Assembly: GCA_902805915.1 (NCBI GenBank)
Contig: CADCUO010000243.1
Coordinates: 1-33,158, forward strand
Length of the DNA stretch: 33,158 nucleotides
Direction: 5' to 3'
From: an uncultured Propionibacteriaceae bacterium
GTDB lineage: Bacteria; Actinomycetota; Actinomycetes; Propionibacteriales; Propionibacteriaceae
Under the pieces are notes generated by a model. That model searched no databases and was not told the DNA's origin. It worked only from the letters and a program-made list of their open reading frames with translations. Position numbers and translations under genes: made by a program. This document shows, one piece after another, positions 3,058 to 23,318 of this stretch; positions within the stretch are counted from its first letter, which is position 1; every line of letters starts with the position of its first letter.

Positions 3058-4758
3058 ATGATGCCCACCGGTAACGGCCGCGAGCGCTGGCAGGCCGCGT
3101 TCAAGGCTGCCCGGGAGCGTGGCCAGATCAAGGAGGCCGACTTCACCACGCTGTCGGGGCTGGAGGTCGACCCGGTCTATGGGCCCGACGACGATGCCGC
3201 CGACCCGAGAATGGAACGGATCGGTTGGCCGGGGGAGTACCCGTACACCCGCGGCCTCTATCCCACCGGCTATCGCGGGCGGCCGTGGACCATTCGGCAG
3301 TTTGCCGGCTTCGGCAATGCGCAGCAGACCAACGAGCGCTACAAGATGATCTTGGCGGCTGGCGGGGGCGGCCTCAGCGTGGCCTTCGACATGCCGACCC
3401 TGATGGGCCGCGACTCCGATGACGTGGTCAGCCTGGGGGAGGTGGGGCATTGCGGGGTTGCCGTCGACTCAGCCGCCGATATGGAGCAGCTCTTCGCGGG
3501 AATCGACCTGGGAGCGGTCAGCACCTCGATGACCATCTCCGGTCCTGCGGTTCCGGTGTTCTGCATGTACGTCGTCGCGGCGGAGCGGCAAGGTGTCGAT
3601 ATCTCCACCCTCAACGGCACGCTCCAGACCGACATCTTCAAGGAGTACATCGCCCAGAAGGAGTGGTTGTTCGCCCCTGAGCCGCACCTGAGGCTGATCG
3701 GTGACCTGATGGAGTACTGCAGCGAGAAGATCAGGAACTACAAGCCGCTCAGCGTCTCGGGCTACCACATCCGTGAGGCGGGATCCACGGCGGCGCAGGA
3801 GCTCGCCTTCACCCTCGCCGACGGCTTCGGCTACGTGGAGCTGGGCTTGTCCCGTGGCCTCGACCTCGATGCCTTCGTGCCCGGTCTCAGCTTCTTCTTC
3901 GATGCGCACATCGACTTCTTCGAGGAGATCGCGAAGTTCCGGGCCGCACGTCGCATCTGGGCCCGCTGGCTGCGGGACCGGTACGGTGCCACCACTGCTC
4001 GATCGCAGTGGCTGCGCTTTCACACCCAGACGGCTGGAGTCTCACTTACTGCGCAGCAGCCGTACAACAACGTGGTTCGTACGGCGGTGGAGGCGCTCGC
4101 CGCGGTGCTCGGTGGTACCAACTCCCTGCATACCAACGCGCTGGACGAGACGCTGGCATTGCCGAGCGCGGAGTCGGCCGAGATAGCGCTACGCACCCAG
4201 CAGGTCATCGCGGAGGAGACAGGTGTGGTGAACGTCGCGGATCCGCTCGGTGGCTCCTGGTACGTCGAGGCCCTGACCGATCGGCTGGAGGCGGAAGCGG
4301 AGGCCATCTTCACCAGGATCATCGAGATGGGCGGCGGTGAGGGGGTCGAGCATCCGATCGGTCCGGTCACCTCAGGGTTGTTGCGTGGGATCGAGGAAGG
4401 CTGGTTCACCGGTGAGATCGCCGAGTCAGCCTTCCGGTACCAGACACAGCTGGAGAAGGGCGACAAACGTGTCGTCGGCGTGAACTGTCACACCGCCACC
4501 ACGACGGGCCAGCTGGAGATCCTGCGGGTAAGCCATGAGGTCGAGCTTGAACAGAGGCAGGTCCTCAGCCAGCGCAAGGCTGCCCGCGACCAGGCGGCCG
4601 TGCGGCACCGGCTGACGCAGCTGGCCCAGGCGGCACGTTCCAGCGACAACCTGGTCGAGCCGATGCTGGCGGCCGTACGGGTCGAGGCCACCCTCGGGGA
4701 GATCTGTGCCACGCTTCGGGACGTGTGGGGCGGCTACACCGAGGTGGCGCAGTTCTGA
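3058..4758 (+). CDS. icmA: Isobutyryl-CoA mutase large subunit
   Basis: A 566-residue protein, the same length as Streptomyces IcmA as I remember it. It has only the acyl-CoA-binding barrel and lacks the B12-binding domain found at the C-terminus of methylmalonyl-CoA mutase. Substrate residues separate the two enzymes: methylmalonyl-CoA mutase has Tyr89 and Arg207 (Propionibacterium numbering), while isobutyryl-CoA mutase has Phe and Gln. Here they are F82 (in RQFAGFG) and Q200 (in KEYIAQKEW). The conserved active-site histidine is H237 (SGYHIREAG). The reaction is reversible rearrangement of isobutyryl-CoA to n-butyryl-CoA with adenosylcobalamin. It must pair with a small B12-binding subunit (IcmB), which is not in this window. 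A strong GAGGAGGT site precedes the start. Confidence 0.9.
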   Translation: MMPTGNGRERWQAAFKAARERGQIKEADFTTLSGLEVDPVYGPDDDAADPRMERIGWPGEYPYTRGLYPTGYRGRPWTIRQFAGFGNAQQTNERYKMILAAGGGGLSVAFDMPTLMGRDSDDVVSLGEVGHCGVAVDSAADMEQLFAGIDLGAVSTSMTISGPAVPVFCMYVVAAERQGVDISTLNGTLQTDIFKEYIAQKEWLFAPEPHLRLIGDLMEYCSEKIRNYKPLSVSGYHIREAGSTAAQELAFTLADGFGYVELGLSRGLDLDAFVPGLSFFFDAHIDFFEEIAKFRAARRIWARWLRDRYGATTARSQWLRFHTQTAGVSLTAQQPYNNVVRTAVEALAAVLGGTNSLHTNALDETLALPSAESAEIALRTQQVIAEETGVVNVADPLGGSWYVEALTDRLEAEAEAIFTRIIEMGGGEGVEHPIGPVTSGLLRGIEEGWFTGEIAESAFRYQTQLEKGDKRVVGVNCHTATTTGQLEILRVSHEVELEQRQVLSQRKAARDQAAVRHRLTQLAQAARSSDNLVEPMLAAVRVEATLGEICATLRDVWGGYTEVAQF

Positions 4759-6273: not shown

Positions 6274-6294
6274 CGGACCGCTAGCTTCGTCAGC
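6269..6294. terminator. Bidirectional hairpin spanning both stop codons
   Basis: GCTGACG (6269-6275) and CGTCAGC (6288-6294) form a perfect 7-bp stem with a 12-nt loop. The TGA of the WYL gene and the TGA of the minus-strand sigma-like gene both lie inside the stem arms. No T-run is present, so termination strength is uncertain. Confidence 0.4.
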
Positions 6295-7804
6295 GGGGAA
6301 GGCTGCGGTCAGCGCTGCTCCAGGTGCCCCGGTCGGTGATGTCGGGCGCGAAGCTGATGACCTCCGCGGTCTCGGTCAGGGTTGCCAACACCGACTCCGG
6401 CAGCGCTCCGGGGGCAGCACGGTCACTCGATGTGGAGGCCAGCAGGCAGGCGCGCTGCCCTTGGACCTGGAAGCACAACGTCGATTGGTCACGATTGCCG
6501 GACAGCACGGCGGTACGGCCGCCCACGCTCAGCCTCACCGGGTTGGTGAGCTGACTTCGTCCCGGCTCGGCGGGCATCGAGAACGACAGCTCGACCTCCG
6601 AGGTGGCGCCCGGACGGGCCGCCAGCTTGACCTCCACCCGGCCGTCGGCGTGCTCGGCGAGCGCCTCGACGGCGAAGGGCTCAGGCGGCGGGCCAAACGA
6701 AAAAGGCAGCGCGATCGGTGACCGATCGAACTCGACCGAGCGGGCCAACGCCACCAGCTCCGCGCGAGTGGCGTCCGGGGTCACCGACGTACCCAGCCAG
6801 GCGCAATGCACCCAGGCCCAGCCGTCATCGGCGTACCGCCACGCCACGTACGGTCCACCTCCGACCCGCTCGACCTTGCTGTCACTGAAGAAACCCGGAC
6901 GTCCTCGGACAGAGACGGCATTCTCGGGAACGGTCGCGTCGGGCGAGATGAAGGTGTCGGTGGCGGGCAACGAGACGCTCACCACACAGGTCCGAGCGTT
7001 CGGGCGGGCGTCGTTGGTCAGCTCGGTGATCTCGCGGTCGGCGCTGACAGAGCGCGCGAGGGCGCGCCAGCCCTCAGGCGGATCCACCGTGTGCATGAAC
7101 GTCCATTCGCCGGACTGGCGGACGAACACCGGCAGCCGGGGCACCAGCACGGTCGGCACCAGCGCGACCGCCGAAAGCCCGACGAGTGTCGCCGCGCCAA
7201 TGGCGACCCTTCGGGCCCGGCGCGACCCGAGCCGCTCGAGGTGGTGCACCAGAGACCTTCGCACAGCGTCGACGGCTGGAGTGCGGTCGGATAGGCGGCG
7301 CAGCGCGGACCGCAGCTCGTCCAGCTCGATGCCCGGCTGGGCGGTCCGGAGCGTTTCCTGCGCCTGAGCCAGATCCCGAGCCACGCCTGCCACCGACCGG
7401 TCAAGCATCGACGCAGTGTGGGTCTGGCTGAGGAGCATCAGCTGGTTGAGCACCAGGACGGCACGGTGCCTGGCCGGCAGCAGGTCGAGGCCGTCGATTG
7501 CCGGGTCTCCGTCGCGCTCGGGTTGCGGCCCTGTCAGGTCTAGGGCCTCCGCAGAGTCGGGCGGTGTTGAGTAAGCGCCCGGTCTGGACCCGGCCGCGAG
7601 ATAGGTGCGCACGAGCAGCTTCTGTAGCTCCTCGGCCGGAAACTCCAGCTGACGGAGCCGGCGCCAACGCCGACCTGCCTTGGCGGTTGCAGCGCCGACC
7701 AGGTCGGCCGCCGCGGACGGGGTGCCGGTGAGGGCGGTCGCCAACGGAAGCAGGTCGTCCCAGTAGTCGACGATCTCCCGCTCGAAGCCCGACGACCTCT
7801 GCAC
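6290..7804 (-). CDS. Membrane-anchored protein with degenerate sigma-factor-like N-terminus
   Basis: A 504-residue protein of unusual build. Residues about 10-70 resemble sigma-70 region 2 (YWDDLLPLATALTG, then SAAADLVGAATAKAGRRWRRL in outline). Residues about 105-155 resemble region 4 (LPARHRAVLVLNQL, then ASMLDRSVAGVARDLAQA). A hydrophobic segment at about 200-221 (VAIGAATLVGLSAVALVPTV) would span the membrane, and the remaining 280 residues would lie outside the cell as a beta-rich domain of unknown type with few cysteines. The GTG start has an AAGGA site 5 nt upstream and lies 17 nt after pgm, so both are likely one operon. Whether it still acts in transcription or is only a sensor is unknown. 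Confidence 0.6.
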   Translation of the reverse strand: MQRSSGFEREIVDYWDDLLPLATALTGTPSAAADLVGAATAKAGRRWRRLRQLEFPAEELQKLLVRTYLAAGSRPGAYSTPPDSAEALDLTGPQPERDGDPAIDGLDLLPARHRAVLVLNQLMLLSQTHTASMLDRSVAGVARDLAQAQETLRTAQPGIELDELRSALRRLSDRTPAVDAVRRSLVHHLERLGSRRARRVAIGAATLVGLSAVALVPTVLVPRLPVFVRQSGEWTFMHTVDPPEGWRALARSVSADREITELTNDARPNARTCVVSVSLPATDTFISPDATVPENAVSVRGRPGFFSDSKVERVGGGPYVAWRYADDGWAWVHCAWLGTSVTPDATRAELVALARSVEFDRSPIALPFSFGPPPEPFAVEALAEHADGRVEVKLAARPGATSEVELSFSMPAEPGRSQLTNPVRLSVGGRTAVLSGNRDQSTLCFQVQGQRACLLASTSSDRAAPGALPESVLATLTETAEVISFAPDITDRGTWSSADRSLPR

Positions 7805-7821: not shown

Positions 7822-9453
7822 TCAGCCGAGCGTCGCCGAAACCACCGCGCGCGCCTCCTCCTGCACGAGCGCCAGGTGGTCGGCACCTCGGAAGGACTCC
7901 GCGTAGATCTTGTAGACATCTTCGGTGCCCGATGGACGGGCGGCGAACCAGGCCGAGTCGGTGCAGACCTTCAGTCCGCCGATCGCTGCGCCGTTCCCTG
8001 GTGCGGTGGTGAGGATCGCGGTGATCTTCTCACCCGCCAGCTCGGTTGCTGCGACGGCGGAGGAGTCCAGCTTGGACAGCTTCGCCTTCTGCTCGCGGTT
8101 GGCGGGTGCATCCACGCGCGCGTACGCCGGGGCGCCGTGGGCGGCGGTCAGCTCGGCATACAGCTCGCTCGGCGACTTGCCGGTGACAGCGCGGATCTCG
8201 CTGGCCAGCAGCGCCAGCAGGATGCCGTCCTTGTCCGTGGTCCAGGTGCTGCCGTCCAGAGCTAGGAAGGAGGCACCGGCAGACTCCTCGCCGCCGAAAC
8301 CGATGGTGCCCGACCGCAGGCCGTCGACGAACCACTTGAAGCCCACCGGCACCTCCACCAGGGTGCGCCCCAGATCTGCTGCGACGCGGTCGATCATGGA
8401 GGAGGACACCAACGTCTTGCCGACCCCGGCGTCTGGGTTCCATCCCGGCCGGTTTGCGTACAGGTACGCGATGGCGACGGCGAGATAGGCGTTCGGGTTC
8501 ATCAGGCCGAAGTCCGGGGTGACGATGCCGTGCCGGTCGGCGTCGGCGTCGTTGCCGGTGGAGATGTCGAAGGCAAGCTTGTTCGCGATCAGGCTCGCCA
8601 TCGCGTTCGGGGAGGAGCAGTCCATCCTGATCTTGCCGTCGGTGTCCAAGGTCATGAACGACCAGCGCGGGTCGACCTCTTTGTTGATCACCGTCAGGTC
8701 CAGGCCCAGCCGGTCGGCGATGTATCCCCAGTAGTCGACGCTGGCGCCGCCCAGCGGGTCAGCGCCGATGTGGACACCGGCCTCTCGGACCGCGTCGAGG
8801 TTCAGCGCGTTGACCAGGTCCTCGCAGTAGCGACCCATGTAGTCGAAGCGGTTCAGCTCGGCCGCGACCGACTCGAACGACTTGCGGCGGATGGCCGAGC
8901 CGTCGCTGAGCAAGGCGTTGGCGCGCGCGGCGATGACGCTGGTCGCGTCCGAGTCAGCGGGTCCACCGTGCGGGGGGTTGTACTTGAAGCCGCCGTCGCG
9001 GGGCGGGTTGTGCGACGGAGTGACCACGATCCCATCGGCCGTGTCGGCCGCGGCAGCCGTCGCGTTGTGCACCACGATGGCCCGGGACACCGCAGGTGTG
9101 GGGGTGTACTGGTTGTCGTTCTCACAGCACACCGTCACTTCGTTGGCCAGCAGTACCTCGATCGCGGTCCGCCATGCCGGCAGCGACAGTGCGTGCGTGT
9201 CCTTGCCGAGGAAGAGCGGCCCGGTGATGCCCTGGGACGCTCGGTACTCAACGATGGCCTGGGTGGTGGCGGCGATGTGTGCGTCGTTGAAGGCGGTGTC
9301 CAGACTGGAGCCTCGATGCCCTGACGTACCGAAGGCGACCTGCTGGTCGGGGTTCGACGGGTCAGGGGTGAGGTCGTAGTAGGCACCGACAACGGCGTCC
9401 ACGTCGATCAGGTCTTCGGGTTGGGCCGGCTGGCCGGCGCGAGGGTGAGCCAT
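7822..9453 (-). CDS. pgm: Phosphoglucomutase (alpha-D-glucose phosphate-specific)
   Basis: A 543-residue enzyme, close to the roughly 546 residues of E. coli Pgm. It interconverts glucose 1-phosphate and glucose 6-phosphate in the cytoplasm. The phosphoserine loop is TPSHNP with S147, the metal loop is DADADRHG (D302, D304, D306), the sugar-binding loop is GEESAG (388-393) and the phosphate-binding loop is RPSGTEDVYKIY near the C-terminus. The frame extends upstream to 9726, but the ATG at 9453 gives the normal length and has a CAGAAT box 7 nt before it, so it may be leaderless. The product connects the glycogen genes further right with central metabolism. The sigma-like gene follows after 17 nt. 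Confidence 0.93.
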   Translation of the reverse strand: MAHPRAGQPAQPEDLIDVDAVVGAYYDLTPDPSNPDQQVAFGTSGHRGSSLDTAFNDAHIAATTQAIVEYRASQGITGPLFLGKDTHALSLPAWRTAIEVLLANEVTVCCENDNQYTPTPAVSRAIVVHNATAAAADTADGIVVTPSHNPPRDGGFKYNPPHGGPADSDATSVIAARANALLSDGSAIRRKSFESVAAELNRFDYMGRYCEDLVNALNLDAVREAGVHIGADPLGGASVDYWGYIADRLGLDLTVINKEVDPRWSFMTLDTDGKIRMDCSSPNAMASLIANKLAFDISTGNDADADRHGIVTPDFGLMNPNAYLAVAIAYLYANRPGWNPDAGVGKTLVSSSMIDRVAADLGRTLVEVPVGFKWFVDGLRSGTIGFGGEESAGASFLALDGSTWTTDKDGILLALLASEIRAVTGKSPSELYAELTAAHGAPAYARVDAPANREQKAKLSKLDSSAVAATELAGEKITAILTTAPGNGAAIGGLKVCTDSAWFAARPSGTEDVYKIYAESFRGADHLALVQEEARAVVSATLG

Positions 9454-9460
9454 AGGCCAC

Positions 9461-9466
9461 ATTCTG
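9461..9466 (-). promoter_or_regulatory. Possible -10 box of pgm
   Basis: CAGAAT on the minus strand is followed by exactly 7 nt and the ATG at 9453, the same geometry as the TANNNT boxes seen before glgP, ligA and the enoyl-CoA hydratase gene. The first base differs from the consensus. Confidence 0.3.
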
Positions 9467-9485
9467 CCCACACTTGCCGCCACCA

Positions 9486-9499
9486 TGGGCCCGGGCCCA
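9486..9499. promoter_or_regulatory. 14-bp palindrome between pgm and the thioredoxin-like gene
   Basis: TGGGCCCGGGCCCA is a perfect palindrome in the 96-bp gap between two divergent genes. It might be a regulator site, but GC-rich palindromes also arise by chance in this genome. Confidence 0.25.
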
Positions 9500-9536
9500 G
9501 GGATGTCCCAAGTTCGCCGACCGGCCGCGGCTTTGA

Positions 9537-9542
9537 CAGGAT
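9537..9542 (+). promoter_or_regulatory. Possible -10 box of the thioredoxin/TPR gene
   Basis: CAGGAT is followed by 7 nt and the ATG at 9550. The spacer (GGAGGGC) also contains a GGAGG that could serve as a ribosome site, though only 2 nt from the start. Confidence 0.25.
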
Positions 9543-9549
9543 GGAGGGC

Positions 9550-10479
9550 ATGAGCGCCTCGAGTTTCAGCCGTCCCGGAGCCATCGATCTGTCGCAGCTC
9601 GCCAAGCGGGCGCAGCCACCGGCAGGCGCCGCTGGCGGTGGCCCCGCGGGCGCTGGTGCCTCCTATGTGGTGGAGGTGACCGAGCAGACCTTCGACGCGG
9701 AGGTGATGCGCAGGTCGCTGCAGCACCCAGTGGTGGTTGAATTCTATTCGCCGCGGGTGAGCTCGGGTCAGCAGCTGTCCGACGCGCTGGCTGCGGTGGC
9801 GAGCGAAGCGGCGGGCAAGTTCGTTGTGGCTCGGCTCAACGTCGACGTCTCACCGCAGATCGTGCAGGCTCTGCAGCTCCAGGCGGTACCCACCGTGATC
9901 GGTGTCATCGGCGGCCAGATCGCCCCGCTGTTCCAAGGAGTGCTGCCGAAGGCCCAGGTGCAGGCCTACATCGACGAGCTGATCAAGGCTGCGGTGGCGA
10001 ACGGCATCGTCGGTCGCGCCGACCCGGTCGGCGCGACGCCCGGAGGCGCCGAACCCGAGCAGGCGCCGGACCCCCGGTTCGCGGCAGCGGACGCGGCACT
10101 CGAACGTGGCGACTTCGCGGCCGCCAGCGAAGAGTTCGACAAGCTGCTCCAAGCCAACCCTGGCGATGCCGAAGCGCTGGCTGGCAAGGCGCAGGCGGGC
10201 CTGCTCGCCCGTACGGCGACGCTCGACCCCGACGAGGTGCTGGCTCGAGCGGCACAGCCCGACGCCGATATCCAGGTGCAGCTGGAGGCCGCCGATGTCG
10301 AGCTGGTCATCGGTACTCCGGAGGCAGCCTTCGCCCGGCTCATCGCCGTGATCAGGAGGTCGGCCGGGGAGGAGCGCAACCAGGCCCGGGTGCGGCTGCT
10401 GGAGCTGTTCGAGACCCTGGGCAACGCCGACGAGCGGGTGCTCAAGGCGCGTCGCGACCTGATGGCCGCGCTGTTCTGA
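9550..10479 (+). CDS. Thioredoxin-fold and TPR protein (CnoX/YbbN-like)
   Basis: A 309-residue protein. After a Gly/Ala-rich leader, residues about 40-150 form a thioredoxin fold: VVVEFYSPRVSSGQQLSDAL, then ARLNVDV and LQAVPTVIGV with the cis-proline kept. The usual WCxxC active site is replaced by a stretch with no cysteine (YSPRVSSGQ). The C-terminal half is helical with TPR-like repeats (ERGDFAAASEEFDKLLQANP, ADVELVIGTPEAAFARLIAV). This arrangement is that of E. coli YbbN/CnoX, a holdase that protects clients from chlorine stress and hands them to chaperones. Redox activity is not expected here. The start is chosen by the leader pattern of homologues; an ATG at 9541 is also possible. Confidence 0.75.
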   Translation: MSASSFSRPGAIDLSQLAKRAQPPAGAAGGGPAGAGASYVVEVTEQTFDAEVMRRSLQHPVVVEFYSPRVSSGQQLSDALAAVASEAAGKFVVARLNVDVSPQIVQALQLQAVPTVIGVIGGQIAPLFQGVLPKAQVQAYIDELIKAAVANGIVGRADPVGATPGGAEPEQAPDPRFAAADAALERGDFAAASEEFDKLLQANPGDAEALAGKAQAGLLARTATLDPDEVLARAAQPDADIQVQLEAADVELVIGTPEAAFARLIAVIRRSAGEERNQARVRLLELFETLGNADERVLKARRDLMAALF

Positions 10480-10504: not shown

Positions 10505-11289
10505 CTGGCTGGGACGGTCCCGTCCTCGGTGTAGGCCATAGTGCCGGGCGCCAGGCTGGCGGCAATACTGAGCCTGCGGTGGGCGATGGGGGTGAGGAGC
10601 TCGGCAGCCTGTGCCAGTGTGACCAGCTGCACCCGCTTGATCTCACTCGGCTGCAGTGCGTAGCCGCCCACCTCGTCGGCGGTCACAGTGCCGCCGTCGA
10701 AGATCATCTCGATGGCGTCATCCCAGCCGAGGTACGGCGGCAGCCAGTCCACCACCAGCAGCCGTCCCACCGCCAGGTGAATACCGAGCTCCTCGCGCAC
10801 CTCCCGGATCGCGCCGTGCCGGGGAGTCTCGCCAGGCTCCACGATCCCTCCGGGAAGCTCCCAGTCCGGCTTGAACTGGGTCTCGCACAGCAACACCCGG
10901 CCCTGCTCATCCCGCATCACCACGTGCGCTATCAGCCGCTTCTTCGGCAGGGCGGAGTTCATCACAGCGGAGAAGCCATGAGCCCCATCCACCGCGTCGG
11001 TAGCCAGCCGGGCGAAGAGCAGCTCGTCGGCCCAGCTCCCGTCCGCGCCTCTCACCGCCTGACGCCGTACCCCCTCCAGCCGGAAGCCGGACCTCAGCAC
11101 CGCTCGCCGTTCCTGGGTCTGCTGGCTCGCCAGCACGACCTCCAGCCGACGTACACCGCCGCCGACCAGTGCCTGCTCAGCAGCGACGGACAGGGCCTGC
11201 GTCAGGTCCGGCAGGCTCGGCTCGCCGTCCCAGTGCACGCTGGCAACGCCGTCGCCGAGGTTCCTTAGCTGAAGGCCGCTGTCAGCCAC
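10501..11289 (-). CDS. GNAT-like/NUDIX hydrolase fusion
   Basis: A 262-residue protein. Residues about 45-97 look like the second half of a GNAT acetyltransferase fold (RRAVLRSGFRLEGVRRQAVR, then ADELLFARL), without the usual acetyl-CoA P-loop. Residues about 118-250 are a NUDIX domain with a complete box: G148, E154 and R162-E163-V164-R165-E166-E167-L168-G169-I170. NUDIX enzymes cut nucleoside diphosphates linked to another group. The GTG start lies 12 nt after glgB, so it is co-transcribed with the glucan genes; an ADP-glucose or related sugar-nucleotide substrate is therefore worth considering, but this is inference from position only. Confidence 0.8.
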   Translation of the reverse strand: MADSGLQLRNLGDGVASVHWDGEPSLPDLTQALSVAAEQALVGGGVRRLEVVLASQQTQERRAVLRSGFRLEGVRRQAVRGADGSWADELLFARLATDAVDGAHGFSAVMNSALPKKRLIAHVVMRDEQGRVLLCETQFKPDWELPGGIVEPGETPRHGAIREVREELGIHLAVGRLLVVDWLPPYLGWDDAIEMIFDGGTVTADEVGGYALQPSEIKRVQLVTLAQAAELLTPIAHRRLSIAASLAPGTMAYTEDGTVPAS

Positions 11290-11301
11290 CTGAACGTAGC
11301 C

Positions 11302-13728
11302 TCAGTCCGTACCAGAACCGCCGCCGGCAGCGCCACCCTCGCCGGTCGACGGTGGCTGCGTAGCCGACTCCGTGGCCGACCGACCCGCCGCCCCCTTCCG
11401 GGACCGCGGGGCGGCGGTCTTCTTGCCGGCTGCCTTGCCCGCTGCCTTGGCTATCTTGGCGGCGGCAGACTTGGTGGCCTTGGCCGCCCCCTTCACCGCG
11501 ACGGACTCCGTCGCCTTGGCGACTGCTTTCGCCGCCTTCTTCACCGGCGCGGCTGGTGCCTCAGTGCTCGCAGCCTCGATCGGCGGTTCTGCGGCGGGCG
11601 CGTTGGCGGCTGCTCCGGGCGGTGCGCCCTCCGTGGCGTCGAAGTCCAGGTCCACCGCGGGTCCTCGTCCGATCGGCTCGGCGGTTGCTGACCTCTGGGT
11701 GGCACCAGGCTGCGCGGCATCCGCCCCGGCTGCAGCCGAGGCCTCGGTGCTGGGGGTCGGTGACGCCAGCTTGGCGGCGGCTCTGATCGCGGCCGCCGCC
11801 TTGTCGGGCTCGGGTTGCGGCTCAGTCAGGACGGGTTCGAACATCAGCCAGACCGCCCCGAGCGGGGGGATGGTCACGTCGGCCGACGCCGGATACCCGT
11901 GGGAGGGGATCGGGGTGGCCTCAACCTGGCCCAGGTTCCCGAACACCCCGCTGCCGTCGTAGACGGCCGCATCGGTGTTCAGGATCTCCTTCCACACGCC
12001 CTCGGTCGGTAGACCGATCCGGTGGTCCGGCCGCGGCTCGGTGGAGAAGTTGACGAGGCTGGCGATGATCTGGCCGTCACCGTCGTACCGCAAGAAGGAG
12101 AAGACGTTGCCGCCGCGGTCATCGGCGTCGATCCAGGCGAAGCCGGCCGGGTCGGTGTCCAGCTTGAACAGGGCCGGGTGCGCCTTGTAGATCGCGTTCA
12201 TGTCCTTGATCAGACGCTGCACACCACGGTGGCCCCACTGGTTGGTGAGATCCCAGTCGAGACTGCGGTTCTCCGAGTACTCCCGCCGCTGCCCGAACTC
12301 GGTGCCCATGAACAGCAGCTGCTTGCCCGGGTGGGACCACATGAAGGCGTAGAAGGCGCGCATGGTGGCGAACTTGCGCCACTCGTCCTGCGGAGCTCGC
12401 TCGAACATGGAGCCCTTGCCGTGCACCACCTCGTCGTGGCTGATCGGGAGGATGAAGTTCTCCGAATACGCGTAGGCCATGGCGAACGTCATCTCATGAT
12501 GGTGGTACTGCCGGTAGAGCGGATCACGCCCGTAGTAGCGCAGCGAGTCGTTCATCCAGCCCATGTTCCACTTGAAGCCGAAGCCCAGGCCGCCGGAGTC
12601 CACCGGTCGGGTGACGCCAGGCCAGGAGGTGGATTCCTCGGCGACCATGATCACGCCGGGTTCGCGGCGGTAGGCGTGCGAGTTGACCTCCTGCAGCAGC
12701 GCTACCGCCTCCAGGTTCTCGTTGCCCCCGAACTCGTTCGGGATCCACTGGCCGGCCTCGCGCGAGTAGTCCAGGTAGAGCATCGAGGCGACGCCGTCGA
12801 CCCGCAGTCCGTCGATGTGGTACTCCTTCAGCCAGTAGTAGGCGTTGGAGTTGAGGAAGCTCTTCACCTCGTTGCGGCCGAAGTTGAAGATGTAGGAGCC
12901 CCAGTCGGGGTGCCAGCCCTTGCGTGGGTCCTCGTGCTCGTACAGCGCGGTGCCGTCGAAGCGCTGTAGCGCCCACGGGTCGGTGGCGAAGTGGCCAGGA
13001 ACCCAGTCGATGATCACCCCGACGCCCGCCTGGTGCAGCATGTCGACCAGGTGCCGGAACTCATCCGGTGACCCGAACTTCGACATCGGCGCGAAGTAGC
13101 CGGTGACGTGGTAGCCCCACGACCCCTCGTACGGGTGCTGCGCGACGGGCAGGAACTCCACGTGGGTGTAGCCCTGCCAGCTGACGTACTCCACCAGCTC
13201 CTTGGCCAGCTCGAGGTAGGTCAGCCCTTTGCGCCAGGAACCCAGGTGCACCTCATAGATGCTGATCGGCTTGGCGTGCAGCTGCGACTCCCCGCGGTAC
13301 CACATCCACTGGTCATCACCCCAGACGTACTGGCTGTTGTAGACGATGGAGGCGGTGTGCGGAGCAGCCTCGCAGAACTGGGCCATCGGGTCAGCCTTCA
13401 GGCGCCAGACATCGTCGATGCCACAGACCTCGTACTTGTACAGCGACCCGGTGCCCACGCCTTCGACGAACAACGCCCACACCCCAGACCCCGGCACCAG
13501 GTGCAGGTAGGAGTGCTCGCCGTTCCACCAGTTGAAGTCACCTACCAGCCGAACGGCTTTGGCGTTGGGTGCCCAGACCGAGAAGCGGGTGCCATGCACC
13601 TCCCCGCGGTCGTCATCATGGACAGTCATCTCCTGCGCGCCGGGCCGACGCCAGCACTCGGTGTCATGGCCCTGGTGGAAACCGGTCAGGTCCCAGCCGG
13701 TCAGTCCGCCTGTTGGGTCGTAGCCCAT
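11302..13728 (-). CDS. glgB: 1,4-alpha-glucan branching enzyme with long basic tail
   Basis: An 808-residue GH13 enzyme that creates alpha-1,6 branches in glycogen. An N-terminal CBM48 module (about 45-130, TRFSVWAPNAKAVRLVGDF) precedes the barrel. The nucleophile is D311 (GLRVDGVASMLY), the acid/base is E364 (MVAEESTSWPG), and HD at 431-432 is the third catalytic motif. The enzyme proper ends near residue 632 (GAVWLMFEP). About 176 further residues are rich in Ala, Pro and later Lys (KAAKAVAKAT, AAGKAAGKK), resembling histone-H1-like tails; this is not part of normal GlgB. The ATG at 13728 has AAGGAG 5 nt upstream and is preferred to a GTG at 13734. It starts 2 nt after the mak stop. Confidence 0.93.
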   Translation of the reverse strand: MGYDPTGGLTGWDLTGFHQGHDTECWRRPGAQEMTVHDDDRGEVHGTRFSVWAPNAKAVRLVGDFNWWNGEHSYLHLVPGSGVWALFVEGVGTGSLYKYEVCGIDDVWRLKADPMAQFCEAAPHTASIVYNSQYVWGDDQWMWYRGESQLHAKPISIYEVHLGSWRKGLTYLELAKELVEYVSWQGYTHVEFLPVAQHPYEGSWGYHVTGYFAPMSKFGSPDEFRHLVDMLHQAGVGVIIDWVPGHFATDPWALQRFDGTALYEHEDPRKGWHPDWGSYIFNFGRNEVKSFLNSNAYYWLKEYHIDGLRVDGVASMLYLDYSREAGQWIPNEFGGNENLEAVALLQEVNSHAYRREPGVIMVAEESTSWPGVTRPVDSGGLGFGFKWNMGWMNDSLRYYGRDPLYRQYHHHEMTFAMAYAYSENFILPISHDEVVHGKGSMFERAPQDEWRKFATMRAFYAFMWSHPGKQLLFMGTEFGQRREYSENRSLDWDLTNQWGHRGVQRLIKDMNAIYKAHPALFKLDTDPAGFAWIDADDRGGNVFSFLRYDGDGQIIASLVNFSTEPRPDHRIGLPTEGVWKEILNTDAAVYDGSGVFGNLGQVEATPIPSHGYPASADVTIPPLGAVWLMFEPVLTEPQPEPDKAAAAIRAAAKLASPTPSTEASAAAGADAAQPGATQRSATAEPIGRGPAVDLDFDATEGAPPGAAANAPAAEPPIEAASTEAPAAPVKKAAKAVAKATESVAVKGAAKATKSAAAKIAKAAGKAAGKKTAAPRSRKGAAGRSATESATQPPSTGEGGAAGGGSGTD

Positions 13729-13730
13729 CG

Positions 13731-15179
13731 TCACTCCTTGGTTATCGACGTCGGCTCAAGCGCTGTGGCCTGCTCCGACGTATTGCTTAGGGTCGCCACT
13801 GCGGCAAGCGGGATGCCCACCCACTCCGGGCGGTTGCGCACTTCGTAGACAACCTCGTACACAGCCTTGTCCGCTTCGTACGCACGCAGCACCCTGTCGT
13901 CCTCGACGCTGAGACTGCCTCCGGCATAGCCTTCCAGGAATGCCGTCCTGCAGTCGGTGGCCCAGTCCTGGCTCCGCGGGCCTGGCACACTCGCGGCTGC
14001 GTAGTCGAACGAGCGCAGCATGCCGGCGATGTCGCGCCACACGCTATCCGGTGCTGACCGCTCAGCCAGCGTCTTGACCGGCTCGCCCTCGAAGTCGATG
14101 ATCTTCCAACCCTGCGGTGTCCGCAGGGTCTGCCCCAGATGGAAGTCGCCGTGCAGCCGCTGAGTCGCCAGCTCAATGGTCCTCAGCGTGTCGAACGCCT
14201 GCCGCAGTCCCCCCAGATGTGGCTGCAGGGCCGGGGCGATGGCTGCGGCCCGGTCGAGCCGGGCATTCATCACCTCGGCGACGGCTGCGCCCCGGACGGA
14301 GGCGGTGGGGAAGTGCTCCCGCAGGGCGGCATGGATCTTGGCCAAGGCCCGCCCAAGCCCGCGAGCATCCTCGGTGAAGCTGGTGGCGTCGGAGTATCCA
14401 GCTGCGTCTTGGTGCCGGAGCGATTCCAGCGCAAGTCCCCAGCCGTCCTCGGCGGACGGGAGCTTGGCGACCACCATGGCGAGGTCGGAGTGCACCGGCT
14501 GCCTGCCGGGCTGGCCGGAGAGCTGTTGGGGCCACTCGGCCTCCACCCAGCCGAACAGCTGCGCCACGTCGCCGACGCCGGACCGGCTCAACGCGTCGTG
14601 TACCTCGATGTCGAGGTTGCGGCCGAGCTCCAGCCGGCGGAACAGCTTCATCATGGCCACCTCGCCGAACATCACCGAGGTGTTGCTCTGCTGCCCCGTG
14701 AACACCTGCGGGTCTAGATCGGCGCGAAGCCCGCCGGGGCTGCTGAGCCGGAAGGCGACCGAGATGTCGTCCGCCACCAGGTGTTCCTCATCCAGCAGCA
14801 TCGCAACCAGCAGTGAACAGGCCTCAGGATCCTGCATGGCGTCGTAGGCGACGACCGGGCCAAGCTCGGGGTCGGTGAACCGGCCGATCTCGGCATGCTG
14901 AAGCTCTGCCTTGGGGGCGTTCCGGTAGCACACCGCCAGCTGGTAGAGCTCGTGCTCCTGCGTGGTCGACCCGTCCGCTGTCTGGTCCGCCGGGTCGAGG
15001 CGGTAGCCGATCTCCACCATTTCGAAGCGCACTGCCGGCAAGCTGGCCGACTCCGTCAACCACGGCAGGGGGGTGACTCCGACGAGCTCGGCCGACCTGC
15101 CCTTGCCGGCGAACCAGCGAGCCCCGGTGATGTAGCTCAGCAGCTGCTCGGAGGTCTCGCGGTCCACTGCCGGGCTCAT
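13731..15179 (-). CDS. mak: Maltokinase
   Basis: A 482-residue kinase related to aminoglycoside phosphotransferases; it phosphorylates maltose with ATP to maltose 1-phosphate, the donor for GlgE. The N-terminal region shows ITGARWFAGKGR, typical of Mak/Pep2, and the kinase core shows RLHGDFHLGQTLR followed by KIIDFEGEP, with the catalytic Asp in HGDFH and the metal Asp in IDFEGEP. The frame is open up to a GTG at 15236, but AAGGAG there abuts that GTG with no spacing. The ATG at 15179 overlaps the stop of a 16-codon frame (ATGA) and matches the usual N-terminus better. It lies between glgE and glgB. Confidence 0.88.
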   Translation of the reverse strand: MSPAVDRETSEQLLSYITGARWFAGKGRSAELVGVTPLPWLTESASLPAVRFEMVEIGYRLDPADQTADGSTTQEHELYQLAVCYRNAPKAELQHAEIGRFTDPELGPVVAYDAMQDPEACSLLVAMLLDEEHLVADDISVAFRLSSPGGLRADLDPQVFTGQQSNTSVMFGEVAMMKLFRRLELGRNLDIEVHDALSRSGVGDVAQLFGWVEAEWPQQLSGQPGRQPVHSDLAMVVAKLPSAEDGWGLALESLRHQDAAGYSDATSFTEDARGLGRALAKIHAALREHFPTASVRGAAVAEVMNARLDRAAAIAPALQPHLGGLRQAFDTLRTIELATQRLHGDFHLGQTLRTPQGWKIIDFEGEPVKTLAERSAPDSVWRDIAGMLRSFDYAAASVPGPRSQDWATDCRTAFLEGYAGGSLSVEDDRVLRAYEADKAVYEVVYEVRNRPEWVGIPLAAVATLSNTSEQATALEPTSITKE

Positions 15180-15226
15180 CTCGCGACCTGCCCAGGCTGG
15201 CAGGTGCCGGGTTCTGCAGCGGTCAA
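15176..15226 (-). CDS. Possible 16-codon frame coupled to mak
   Basis: Starting at TTG 15226, 9 nt after a good AAGGAG site, a 16-residue frame (MTAAEPGTCQPGQVAR) ends in a TGA whose first bases overlap the mak ATG (ATGA at 15179-15176). The arrangement would couple mak translation to the upstream ribosome site. It might be a leader peptide, or what is left of a treS gene that normally sits between glgE and mak in related clusters. It is too short to be trusted alone. Confidence 0.25.
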   Translation of the reverse strand: MTAAEPGTCQPGQVAR

Positions 15227-15278
15227 CGTTTGGCACTCCTTGTGATCGGTTGGACTGGTGCAGCTGCCTGCTCCGTTG

Positions 15279-17297
15279 CTAGCTGGCGCCGGGCTTGACG
15301 ATCGTCAGGATGTGCGCAGGGTCGTCATGGGTCAGCCGGACGAAGGCCCGCTGGCCCCACCGCCAGGTCTGTCCGGTGAGCTCGTCGTGCACCAGGAAGA
15401 CGTCGTGCGGGCTCAGTCCCAACGCCGCCATGTCCAGTACCACCTCCGACTCGACGATGGCGTGCGGGTTGAGGTTGACAACCGCGATCACGATGTCGTC
15501 CCCGGCCCGCTTGGAGTAGACGATGACGTCCTCGTGAGGCGCATGGTGGAAGTGCAGGTCCCGCAGCTGCTGCAGCGCCGGGTGCTCACGCCGGATCTGG
15601 TTCAGTCGACCGAGCAGCAGGCTGAGGTTCTCTCCGCTTGCGTCGGCGGCCGCCCAGTCCCGTGGCCGGTACTGGTACTTCTCGGAGTTCAGGTACTCCT
15701 CGCTGCCCTGGCGTACCGCCTGGTTCTCGAACAGCTCGAAACCGGAGTACACGCCCCAGATGGGGGAGAGGGTGGAGCCCAGTACAGCCCGGATCGTGAA
15801 CGCTGGTTTGCCGCCCCACTGGAGGAAGCTGGGGAGGATGTCGGGAGTGTTGACGAAGAAGTTGGGTCGGAAGAAGCTGTCGGTCTGGGTCGTCAGCTCG
15901 GTCAGGTACTCCTCGATCTCCCACTTCTCGTTGCGCCAGGTGAAGTAGGTGTAGGACTGCTGGTAGCCCACCTTCCCGAGCATGTGCATCATGGCCGGCC
16001 TGGTGAACGCCTCCGCCAGGAAGATCACGTCCGGGTCGGTCTTGCGCACCTCGGCCAGGATCCACGCCCAGAAGTCGACCGGCTTGGTGTGCGGGTTGTC
16101 CACGCGGAAGATCCGAACCCCATGGGACATCCACAGCTTTAGGATCCGCAGCTACTCGGCGTAGATGCCTTCCTTGTCGATGTCGAAGTTGATCGGATAG
16201 ATGTCCTGGTACTTCTTCGGCGGGTTCTCTGCGTACGCGATCGAGCCGTCGGCCCGCTTGGAGAACCACTCCGGGTGGTCAGTGACCCAGGGATGGTCCG
16301 GCGAGGCCTGCAGGGCGAAGTCCAACGCGATCTCCAGACCCAGCGACTGCGCCTTGGCCACGAAACGGTCGAAGGCGTCGAAGTCACCCAGATCGGGATG
16401 GATGGCGTCGTGCCCACCTTCGGCGGCACCGATGGCCCAGGGCGACCCGGGGTCGCTGGGCCCTGGGTCGAGAGTGTTGTTCGGTCCCTTCCGGTACGCC
16501 CGACCGATCGGGTGGATCGGTGGCAGATAGACCACGTCGAAGCCCATCGCCGCCGCAGCCTCCAGCCGCGAGTGCGAGGAGTCGAAGGTGCCGGAGATCC
16601 AGGTCTGGGCCTTCTCGTCCCAGCGGGCGCCTTCAGATCGCGGAAAGAACTCATACCAGGAGGCGTACAGGGCCGCCTGGCGGTCGCAGAAGATCGGGTA
16701 GTCCGGGGTGGGAGAGACCAGCTCGCGGGGCCCGAACTGGGTCATCGCGGCGCGGGTGGCCTCGCCGAGCACCACCTCCAGCCGGTCCTCGACCTGGGTA
16801 CCTGAGGATAGGGTGTTCTCGGCGGTCCGCAGCAGCTCGGCGGTGTCCGCTGCGCCGGCGTCGCTGGCTCGCTTTGCCGCAGCAGCGAACAGCGCGGCGC
16901 CCTCGGTGCACACCAGGCTGACGTCGATCCCGGCCGGGATCTTGATCTCTGCGTTGTGGACCCAGGTGGCCCAGGGGTCGCCCCAGCCCTCAACCCGGAA
17001 GGTCCACGGACCCTCCCGGTCGAGTACGACCGACGCCGCCCACCAGTCGAACCCCAAGGGCGTCGTCGGGGCCATCGGCACCAGCCGCTCTACACCGGAC
17101 GGGTCGGTCAGCACCACAGAGGCGTTGACCGCGTCGTGGCCTTCACGGAACACCGTTGCGCGGATCGGTATTCGCTCACCGACTGATGCCTTTGCTGCGA
17201 AGGCGCCGCCCTGGATCACCGGTGACACGTTGGTGACCGGTATCCGGCCGATGGGGGTGCCCTGAAGAGCTGAGAGATGAGGTGTCGCTGCCGTCAC
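15279..17297 (-). pseudogene. glgE: Maltosyltransferase GlgE gene with an in-frame TAG
   Basis: The frame from GTG 17297 to the TAG at 15279 has 672 codons before the final stop and encodes GlgE, which transfers maltosyl units from maltose 1-phosphate to glucan ends. Codon 382 (16152-16154 on the minus strand) is TAG. Frame is kept on both sides: the part before ends DIDKEGIYAE, the part after resumes LRILKLWMSHGV, as in intact GlgE proteins. The nucleophile D400 (FRVDNPHTKP) and acid/base E429 (FLAEAFTRP) lie after the stop, with the same 29-residue spacing as in Streptomyces coelicolor (D394, E423). A 381-residue product would be inactive. An ATG 21 nt after the stop could restart the second half (283 residues). 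It is either a true nonsense mutation or a sequence error. The gene leads the mak-glgB operon. Confidence 0.85.
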
Positions 17298-17303
17298 GCG
17301 CTC

Positions 17304-17309
17304 AACCTA
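17304..17309 (-). promoter_or_regulatory. -10 box of glgE (leaderless)
   Basis: TAGGTT on the minus strand, then GAGCGC (6 nt), then the GTG start of glgE. The same hexamer with a 7-nt spacer precedes the divergent glgP gene. No good -35 box was found at 16-19 nt. Confidence 0.45.
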
Positions 17310-17446
17310 TCGGGAGCAGCCGTCGGCGTGCATCCAAGGCCGCCAATGGTGGACTGCTGCCGCGCTGCCCCTTCACCGTGGCGGCTTCTCTGTGGTTGCG
17401 CAACCAGCCGCCTGCGCACTGTTTCATCGTTGGAGCGAATTGGCGC

Positions 17447-17452
17447 TAGGTT
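17447..17452 (+). promoter_or_regulatory. -10 box of glgP (leaderless)
   Basis: TAGGTT, then GTTCGCC (7 nt), then the GTG start of glgP at 17460. A weak -35-like TTTCAT lies at 17422-17427. There is no ribosome-binding site before the GTG, in agreement with a leaderless mRNA. Confidence 0.5.
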
Positions 17453-17459
17453 GTTCGCC

Positions 17460-20039
17460 GTGCGCGCCATCCGTAAGTTCACTGTGCGTCCGGTCCTTCC
17501 CGACGCCTTGAAGCCTCTCGCCAGTCTTGCTCTGAACCTTCGCTGGTCCTGGCACCACGACACCCAAGAGCTGTTCGCCGCGATGGACGCCGATCTGTGG
17601 GAGTCCACCGGACACGACCCGGTGCAGCTGCTGGCCGAGGTGTCTGTGGATCGGTTGAAGAAGCTGGCCAAGGACCGCAAGTTCGTACGAAGCCTGGAGC
17701 TGGCTCGGGCCGACCTCGCCGACTACCTGAACGGCGATCTCTGGTACCAGGGCTACGCGGCAGAGACCAAGGACGCACCCAAGGCGATCGGATACTTCTC
17801 ACCGGAGTTCGGCATCACCGAGGTGCTGCCGCAGTACTCAGGTGGTCTGGGGATCCTGGCCGGTGATCATCTCAAGGCGGCCAGCGACCTCGGTGTTCCC
17901 GTCATCGGTGTCGGTCTGCTGTACCGGCAGGGCTACTTCAGGCAATCGCTCAACGCCGCCGGCTGGCAGCAGGAACGCTATCCGCTGCTGGATCCCAACG
18001 AGCTTCCCCTTACCCTGCTCCACGACGAGAACGGTCCGGTACGGATCGAGCTGCCGCTGGCTGGTCGCAGCCTGTTCGCGCAGGTGTGGGTGGCCCAGGT
18101 CGGCCGAGTGCCGCTGCTGTTGATGGACTCCGACGTCGAACAGAACTCCGGTGCCGAGCGGGAGACGACCGACCGGCTCTACGGCGGCGGGATCGAGCAT
18201 CGGCTCGCCCAGGAGGTGCTCCTGGGTATCGGCGGTGTCCGGGCCATCCGCGAGTACTGCCGGATCACCGGAGCAGCCGCTCCAGAGGTGTTCCACACCA
18301 ACGAAGGTCACGCCGGTTTCCTCGGCCTGGAACGGATCCGTGAGTTCATGGACGCCGGCCTGGACTTCGACACCGCGCTCGAGCGCAGCCGAGCTGGGAC
18401 GGTCTTCACCACGCACACACCAGTGCCGGCTGGTATCGACCGTTTCCCCCGCGACCTGATCATCGACCAGTTCGCCGCCTTCGGCGCCCTTCCGGTACAT
18501 CGGATCCTGGCGCTCGGTGCGGAGGACTACGAGGGTGGTGACCACGACAAGTTCAACATGGCGGTGATGGGCTTCCGGCTGGGCCAGCGGGCCAACGGTG
18601 TCTCGCTGCTGCACGGCGAGGTGTCGAGGGAGATGTTCCACGGACTGTGGAGCTCCTTCGACAGCAGCGAAGTCACGATCACCTCCATCACCAACGGCGT
18701 GCATCACCAGACCTGGGTGCACCATGAGCTGTTGGAGCTGCTGGAGAGCTCGGCGACCAAGGACTCGGTGATCGACGGGTACGACTGGTCGGCCTTGTTC
18801 AAGGTGGACGCAGCCACCATCTGGTCGCTGAAGCGGCGGATGCGCAACGACCTGATCACCATGACGCGGTCCCGGCTGGCCGAGAGCAGCGCCAACCGCG
18901 GGATCGTCTCGGACTGGGTCAGTGGAGTTCTCGACCCGGACGTGGTGACGTTCGGGTTCGCTCGGCGGGTCCCGTCGTACAAGCGGCTGACTCTGATGCT
19001 GCGCGACCCCGACCGGCTGAAGGCGTTGCTGACCCATCCCGAGCGGCCGATCCAGATCGTGATCGCCGGCAAGTCCCACCCGGCCGACGAGGGCGGCAAG
19101 GCGCTGATCCAGCAGATGGTCCAGTTCGCCGACGCCGCGGATGTCCGGGAGCGGATCGTCTTCCTCCCCGACTACGACATCTCCATGGCCAAGCCGCTGT
19201 ACCCGGGCTGCGACGTCTGGATGAACAACCCGCTGCGCCCGTACGAGGCCTGCGGTACCTCCGGCATGAAGGCGGCGCTGAACGGGGCGGCGAACCTGTC
19301 CATCCGCGACGGCTGGTGGGACGAGTGGTTCGACCCGAAGTTCGGCTGGGAGATCCCGTCGGCCGAGGGGGTCGACGACTCCGAGCAGCGCGATGACATC
19401 GAGGCGCGCTCGCTCTACGACATCATCGAGAACGAGATAGTGCCGCGGTTCTACGACGTGGACGGTGACGGCCTGCCGCAGCAGTGGATCCAGATGATGC
19501 GGGAGACCGTCGCAGGCCTTGGACCCAAGGTGCTCGCGTCGCGGATGGTGCGCGACTACGTCACCACCTTGTACACCCCCGCAGCCGGGTCCTCCCACGC
19601 CATCGAGACCACACCAGGTGCGGCACAGGCGCTGGCGGAGTGGAAGCAGAAGATCCGCTTCGGCTGGGACGGTGTCGCCGTCGACCACGTCGAGAGCCTC
19701 AGTGCTGACGCCATCGAGGTAGGCACCAAGATCCACGTCACTGCCCTGGTCCGGCTCGGCGAGCTGAGCCCTGCCGACGTCGAGGTCCAGCTCATCACTG
19801 GTCGGGTGGATGGTCAGGATGGGCTGAGCGACACCGTGGTCACACCGTTCGCGACGGGCACTGACCAGCCGGGGGGTCTGCGCCGTTACGAGAGCTGGGT
19901 CCAAGCGGACCGCTCGGGCACGATCGGGTACACCGTACGGGTGGTGCCGCACCACTCCGAGCTGGCGAATGTGGCCGAGATGGGCCTGTCGACGCTTCCC
20001 TCGGACCTGCCGGCGCCACCGTCGGCGGCTCAGGCCTGA
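17460..20039 (+). CDS. glgP: Alpha-glucan phosphorylase
   Basis: An 859-residue enzyme of the alpha-glucan phosphorylase family common in actinobacteria and archaea (a GT35 relative longer than 800 residues). It releases glucose 1-phosphate from non-reducing ends of glycogen with pyridoxal phosphate. The N-terminus (VRAIRKFTVRPVLPDALKPL) is typical and sets the start at GTG 17460 instead of 17277. Residues YFSPEFGITEVLPQYSGGLG begin the core as YFSPEFGIT and YSGGLGILAGDHLK, and the PLP lysine is K604 in GTSGMKAALNG. It is divergent from glgE across a 162-bp gap. Its 3' end overlaps the convergent esterase gene by 10 bp. Confidence 0.92.
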   Translation: MRAIRKFTVRPVLPDALKPLASLALNLRWSWHHDTQELFAAMDADLWESTGHDPVQLLAEVSVDRLKKLAKDRKFVRSLELARADLADYLNGDLWYQGYAAETKDAPKAIGYFSPEFGITEVLPQYSGGLGILAGDHLKAASDLGVPVIGVGLLYRQGYFRQSLNAAGWQQERYPLLDPNELPLTLLHDENGPVRIELPLAGRSLFAQVWVAQVGRVPLLLMDSDVEQNSGAERETTDRLYGGGIEHRLAQEVLLGIGGVRAIREYCRITGAAAPEVFHTNEGHAGFLGLERIREFMDAGLDFDTALERSRAGTVFTTHTPVPAGIDRFPRDLIIDQFAAFGALPVHRILALGAEDYEGGDHDKFNMAVMGFRLGQRANGVSLLHGEVSREMFHGLWSSFDSSEVTITSITNGVHHQTWVHHELLELLESSATKDSVIDGYDWSALFKVDAATIWSLKRRMRNDLITMTRSRLAESSANRGIVSDWVSGVLDPDVVTFGFARRVPSYKRLTLMLRDPDRLKALLTHPERPIQIVIAGKSHPADEGGKALIQQMVQFADAADVRERIVFLPDYDISMAKPLYPGCDVWMNNPLRPYEACGTSGMKAALNGAANLSIRDGWWDEWFDPKFGWEIPSAEGVDDSEQRDDIEARSLYDIIENEIVPRFYDVDGDGLPQQWIQMMRETVAGLGPKVLASRMVRDYVTTLYTPAAGSSHAIETTPGAAQALAEWKQKIRFGWDGVAVDHVESLSADAIEVGTKIHVTALVRLGELSPADVEVQLITGRVDGQDGLSDTVVTPFATGTDQPGGLRRYESWVQADRSGTIGYTVRVVPHHSELANVAEMGLSTLPSDLPAPPSAAQA

Positions 20040-21131: not shown

Positions 21132-23318
<2,187 letters not shown>

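Follow-up and report, generated by a model that had tools for sequence, protein, structure and literature searches.

A single TAG codon interrupts the glgE gene in the draft genome of an uncultured Propionibacteriaceae bacterium and raises the question of whether the gene has been inactivated in the sampled organism, whether a wrong base has entered the assembly, or whether a working enzyme is made in spite of the stop. The gene lies in a stretch of 33,158 nucleotides (contig CADCUO010000243.1), which was analysed as a whole and is referred to below as the window. GlgE is an alpha-1,4-glucan:maltose-1-phosphate maltosyltransferase of family GH13, and the GlgEI of Streptomyces coelicolor (PDB 4u2y and 3zss) serves here as the known enzyme: both parts of the interrupted gene align with it and the positions of the catalytic Asp and Glu are kept, and unlike GlgEI the gene of the window is broken by one in-frame TAG. 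We read this TAG as an isolated nonsense change that recently turned an otherwise intact glgE into a null allele in the strain or population sampled, with a probability of roughly 0.55. A real null allele is considered more likely than a consensus error; the data do not decide between the two.

The interrupted glgE frame and its relatives

The glgE frame is located on the minus strand (15279-17297). It opens with a GTG start codon at 17297 and runs for 381 codons up to the TAG at 16152-16154, which is codon 382 and in frame according to the ORF reading, and it continues for another 290 codons beyond. The reading frame is unchanged across the TAG, without an indel, until a terminal TAG at 15279-15281. 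Amino acid identity to the closest relative (genome G016) is approximately 88% both upstream and downstream of the interior TAG, and the 15 residues on each side of it match this relative for 93%, so the stop is not the effect of a chance ORF. The 5' part (16155-17297, minus strand) comprises the N and S domains and the beginning of the catalytic barrel, and matches Pfam family GlgE_dom_N_S (PF11896) with 189.7 bits, above the cut-off. The 3' part (15279-16151, minus strand; 290 codons and the TAG stop) comprises the aligned catalytic pair and the C-terminal domain and, scanned from its ATG, matches GLGE_C (PF21702) with 95.8 bits, likewise above the cut-off; its length falls inside the range of the C-termini of relatives. 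The two parts separately match the same GlgE chains in the PDB. The ORF reading and the Pfam and PDB matches thus agree with the earlier note on this DNA, which had described a single in-frame TAG without an indel, after which the frame resumes as GlgE.

In the alignment to 4u2y_A, in which positions were counted by hand, the interior TAG coincides with residue 376 and the first residue past it with residue 377, with no gaps over the stretch. By the same count, the Asp of the FRVDNPHT motif corresponds to Asp394 and the Glu of the LAEAF motif to Glu423. According to the accessible text of PMC5076824, these residues are the nucleophile and the acid/base of the S. coelicolor GlgE, respectively. 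The alignment puts both of them beyond the interior TAG, where the earlier note had also placed them, and hence outside a continuous frame with the N-terminal part of glgE. A search of the draft genome returned no second glgE.

The first part of glgE was used to search 57 genomes (its own included), with matches in 55, and codon 382 was read in two sets of loci. In the first set, the 29 best matches that were fetched (L003-L031), a sense codon is present in 29/29 loci: Ser in nine, Cys in nine, Val in six, Trp in four and Ala in one. In the second set, the best 80 of 333 matches (L063-L142; partly from the same genomes as the first set), 79/80 loci have a sense codon (Val 58, Ser 8, Ala 8, Cys 4, Trp 1), and in the last one, L129, the motif could not be located. 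This comparison, which the earlier note had proposed as a check, therefore yielded a sense codon in every locus that could be read. The codon 382 position is variable, and the stop is private to this draft among the relatives read. G016, the closest relative, carries a serine codon at this position that differs from TAG by one substitution, which shows that intact glgE copies exist in the genus. An exact 36-base search for the TAG site in the genome contigs gave no match, as is to be expected where each species is represented by one genome.

Other irregular glgE loci were observed in the genomes searched. A single-contig genome of the same genus has a glgE frameshift near codon 77, beside C runs (L218, G007:C1:1180500-1186000; locus positions 3339-3375), which may reflect an indel introduced by sequencing or another glgE that is truly broken. 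Another draft contains two different partial glgE copies, each reaching a contig end (L219 and L220, on G008:C63 and C160), which suggests mixed strains or bins. A remote GlgE-like frame of 38% identity with one TAG inside is present at G052:C1:2655006-2655902.

Selection on the two parts of the gene was estimated against G016. The 5' part gave a dS of 0.752, a dN of 0.085 and a dN/dS of 0.112, and the 3' part a dS of 0.546, a dN of 0.069 and a dN/dS of 0.127, while dN/dS in the remaining 22 rows of this comparison ranged from 0.095 to 0.399, a range that spans both glgE parts. Selection is not relaxed downstream of the stop, and the 3' part is constrained like the 5' part. Given this strong constraint on both parts, the stop is either very young or not real. 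The constraint is no proof that the 3' part is still in use, as recency explains it equally well.

TAG as a terminator and stops elsewhere in the draft

Four ORFs of the window end in TAG, namely those of glgE, ligA and a Meth_synt_2 protein, and one of 71 residues that matches no family. The earlier note had taken TAG to be an ordinary stop in all four (the latter two as a MetE-like gene and a small membrane protein). All four TAG-ended ORFs exist, but only those of the Meth_synt_2 protein and the 71-residue ORF stop exactly where the G016 counterpart stops, also with TAG. The TAG of ligA lies six codons beyond the TAA of G016, and the terminal TAG of glgE (15279-15281, minus strand) comes 11 codons before the TAG of G016 and is, like the interior TAG, opposite a G016 serine codon. 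The C-terminal GlgE tails of relatives vary in length, and several are shorter than that of the window (28 of the 29 loci were read to their stop; L006 ran off its contig). As the tails are variable and several end earlier, the terminal TAG of glgE looks ordinary. In a wider sample of the genome to which the window belongs (G000), TAG is found exactly at the relative's stop in 5/53 checkable pieces, where the relative has TAG in three cases and TGA in two; one of these five TAG-ended pieces (window 9972-10478) is opposite a longer frame.

None of the 34 tRNA genes found by an Rfam search and ARAGORN has a CTA anticodon; because the draft is 84% complete, a CTA tRNA may have escaped detection. 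For prfA, which encodes RF1, a TIGR00019 search of the draft returned a single match below the cut-off, namely prfB, whereas prfA is found above the cut-off in all 19 other genomes of the same genus. In G016, prfA is located on the same contig as glgE at a distance of approximately 45 kb, which by synteny would be approximately 25 kb past the left end of the window. The first 12 kb of this contig (G016:C72) were used as a query against G000. Contig C94 of G000 (L238, L239) matches it up to base 955 and then ends, approximately 0.3 kb short of the prfA match at base 1281; the remaining matches of the query in G000 are short, lie scattered and include one to prfB. Because this contig breaks off immediately ahead of where prfA would be expected, the absence of prfA from the draft is most simply explained by an assembly gap and is probably not a loss.

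The draft comprises 3,164,269 bases in 250 contigs and is 83.87% complete. G016 frames were compared by tblastn with 639,021 of these 3,164,269 bases, which yielded 62 pieces. Frames with an excess of third-position changes were retained, resulting in approximately 22,300 compared codons (9,042 in the window and 13,258 on other contigs), a number that includes some antisense and leader sequence, as the third-position test failed to separate antisense from sense. These pieces contain 17 stop symbols, distributed over 13 pieces and including the interior TAG and the terminal stop of glgE. Of these, the glgE TAG alone lies inside a sense frame between flanks that match well, with position and the identity of the flanks as the basis for judging. 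The other 15 stop symbols were discarded as interior stops on our own judgement, because they precede a likely start codon, fall near the ends of pieces, sit beside gaps, have poor flanks or are opposite a longer frame. The two most plausible of them were inspected manually: the stop near 11735 in L155 lies upstream of the ATG at 11771 and opposite the ORF at 11041-11832, and a piece with two stops (L233) is opposite a longer frame that is found in both genomes. The 13,258 codons on other contigs yielded no convincing interior stop, a sample that still allows for rare single-base errors. Such stops are infrequent in this draft, which mildly favors a real allele, but a single error could easily occur in a draft this large.

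Origin of the interior TAG

A wrong base is the strongest competitor of a real allele and is a tentative reading that we take seriously: a consensus or sequencing error, or a base from a minority strain, would have entered the draft, while glgE is intact in the living population. The draft is fragmented and incomplete, the four closest relatives with a name derive from metagenome binning, as this genome probably does, and the codon differs by one substitution from that of the closest relative. The strong constraint on both parts also speaks for an error. The main argument for an error is the harm expected from the loss of GlgE next to a working maltokinase, which speaks against a long persistence of the allele. 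As far as the accessible texts go, maltose 1-phosphate accumulates and development is delayed in a glgE null of S. venezuelae (PMC5042117), and maltose 1-phosphate is called toxic to mycobacteria (PMC4306142). The lack of any other convincing interior stop in the approximately 22,300 codons argues against an error, as it indicates that such errors are uncommon in the draft.

Both ways in which a real TAG could be tolerated, a split GlgE that reassembles after a restart or leaky amber decoding after a true loss of RF1, are improbable even when taken together. For the restart, an ATG at 16128-16130, 21 nt past the interior TAG, opens a possible ORF of 283 residues (15279-16130, minus strand), and the two fragments would have to assemble into a working enzyme. 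A stop-to-start distance of 21 nt is compatible with reinitiation, and both parts are constrained. The restart fragment would carry the catalytic pair but would lack the N and S domains together with the start of the catalytic domain, inside which the break falls. Moreover, the same methionine is common to many intact relatives and so is no newly arisen start, inspection by eye shows no clear Shine-Dalgarno sequence or ribosome-binding site at this ATG, and no relative read has a stop at this place. The earlier note had mentioned this restart as an exotic alternative; the ATG is indeed there, and we give it little weight, a split enzyme being very improbable.

Least probable of all is a TAG that is read through or reassigned, with full-length GlgE as the product. 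In relatives, Ser, Cys, Val, Trp or Ala occupies this site, so that whichever residue is inserted might do; the draft lacks the prfA that the relatives of the genus have; and the terminal TAG of glgE also faces a serine codon in G016, the frame of which is 11 codons longer, a second coincidence that could be taken to point to TAG as serine. Against these points stand the end of contig C94 just before the syntenic place of prfA and the C-terminal end of glgE, which is inside the range of relatives, several of which end earlier. The use of TAG at the exact stop of the relative in five pieces (one opposite a longer frame), the tRNA genes found in the 84% complete draft, all with anticodons other than CTA, and the lack of a second convincing interior TAG also argue against recoding, and the earlier note's opinion that recoding is unlikely holds on the same grounds.

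The recent null allele that we prefer is also in line with the sense codons of the relatives and the constraint on both parts; the earlier note had likewise considered either a nonsense mutation of recent date or an error in the assembly to be most likely. Recent nonsense alleles and single-stop pseudogenes are known in bacterial genomes. The glgE of the window resembles them in having one stop in a constrained and otherwise intact frame that is absent from the relatives read; nothing distinguishes it from them, and an error could look alike. That the stop is recent and that the base is real are inferred. In the accessible portions of the literature found, there was no precedent for a glgE stop or pseudogene, and no literature was found on the GlgE pathway in Propionibacteriaceae. 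The change is an ordinary nonsense change, either recent or artefactual, and only reads can separate the two.

Neighboring alpha-glucan genes and predicted consequences

The glgE gene is surrounded by genes of glycogen and alpha-glucan metabolism with open frames, in agreement with the earlier note, to which mak, glgB and glgP had looked intact. A mak/pep2-like maltokinase gene (13731-15236, minus strand; Pfam Mak_N_cap and APH) and the glgB gene for the branching enzyme (11302-13734, minus strand; NCBIfam NF003811 with 906.2 bits, above the cut-off) lie downstream of glgE on the same strand, which is the neighborhood expected for GlgE. Divergent to glgE lies a glgP-like gene for an alpha-glucan phosphorylase (17277-20039, plus strand; TIGR02094 with 741.7 bits, above the cut-off), in which homology to G016 starts at 17460. 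The open frames of glgX (21132-23318) and pgm (7822-9726) complete the set, and the maltokinase-like, glgB, phosphorylase, glgX and pgm frames all align with a single contig of G016 (G016:C72). Elsewhere in the draft, glgC and a glgA-family gene are adjacent to each other.

If the base is real, ribosomes would stop at codon 382 and release a GlgE fragment without the catalytic residues and the C-terminal domain, by which maltosyltransferase activity would be lost. As mak is intact, an accumulation of maltose 1-phosphate would then be predicted, except if little of it is supplied. The constructed glgE null of S. venezuelae (PMC5042117) resembles this predicted state in that the maltokinase is present and GlgE is absent. 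It differs in that it was constructed, and in that the present draft also has glgC and a glgA-family gene, which are said to be absent from S. venezuelae. A real base would make this a natural glgE null that has kept its maltokinase, and a useful case for studying how maltose 1-phosphate poisoning is avoided, perhaps through a low trehalose flux or through glgC and the glgA-family gene. An error would instead caution against taking single-base stops in draft genomes as biology. Either way, the known picture of GlgE and of the genetic code is unchanged.

Two further genes of this draft deserve mention. A TreS-like protein of 556 residues (L210, on G000:C214) scores 561.9 bits against TIGR02456 over nearly its full length, below the cut-off of 678.35, and may be a divergent trehalose synthase, judging from this match. 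In the window, a SigE-like sigma factor ORF (6290-7804, minus strand) that remains below its family cut-off is 46.6% identical to its G016 counterpart; the other rows of the G016 comparison are 62-89% identical, which marks this ORF as a fast-changing gene.
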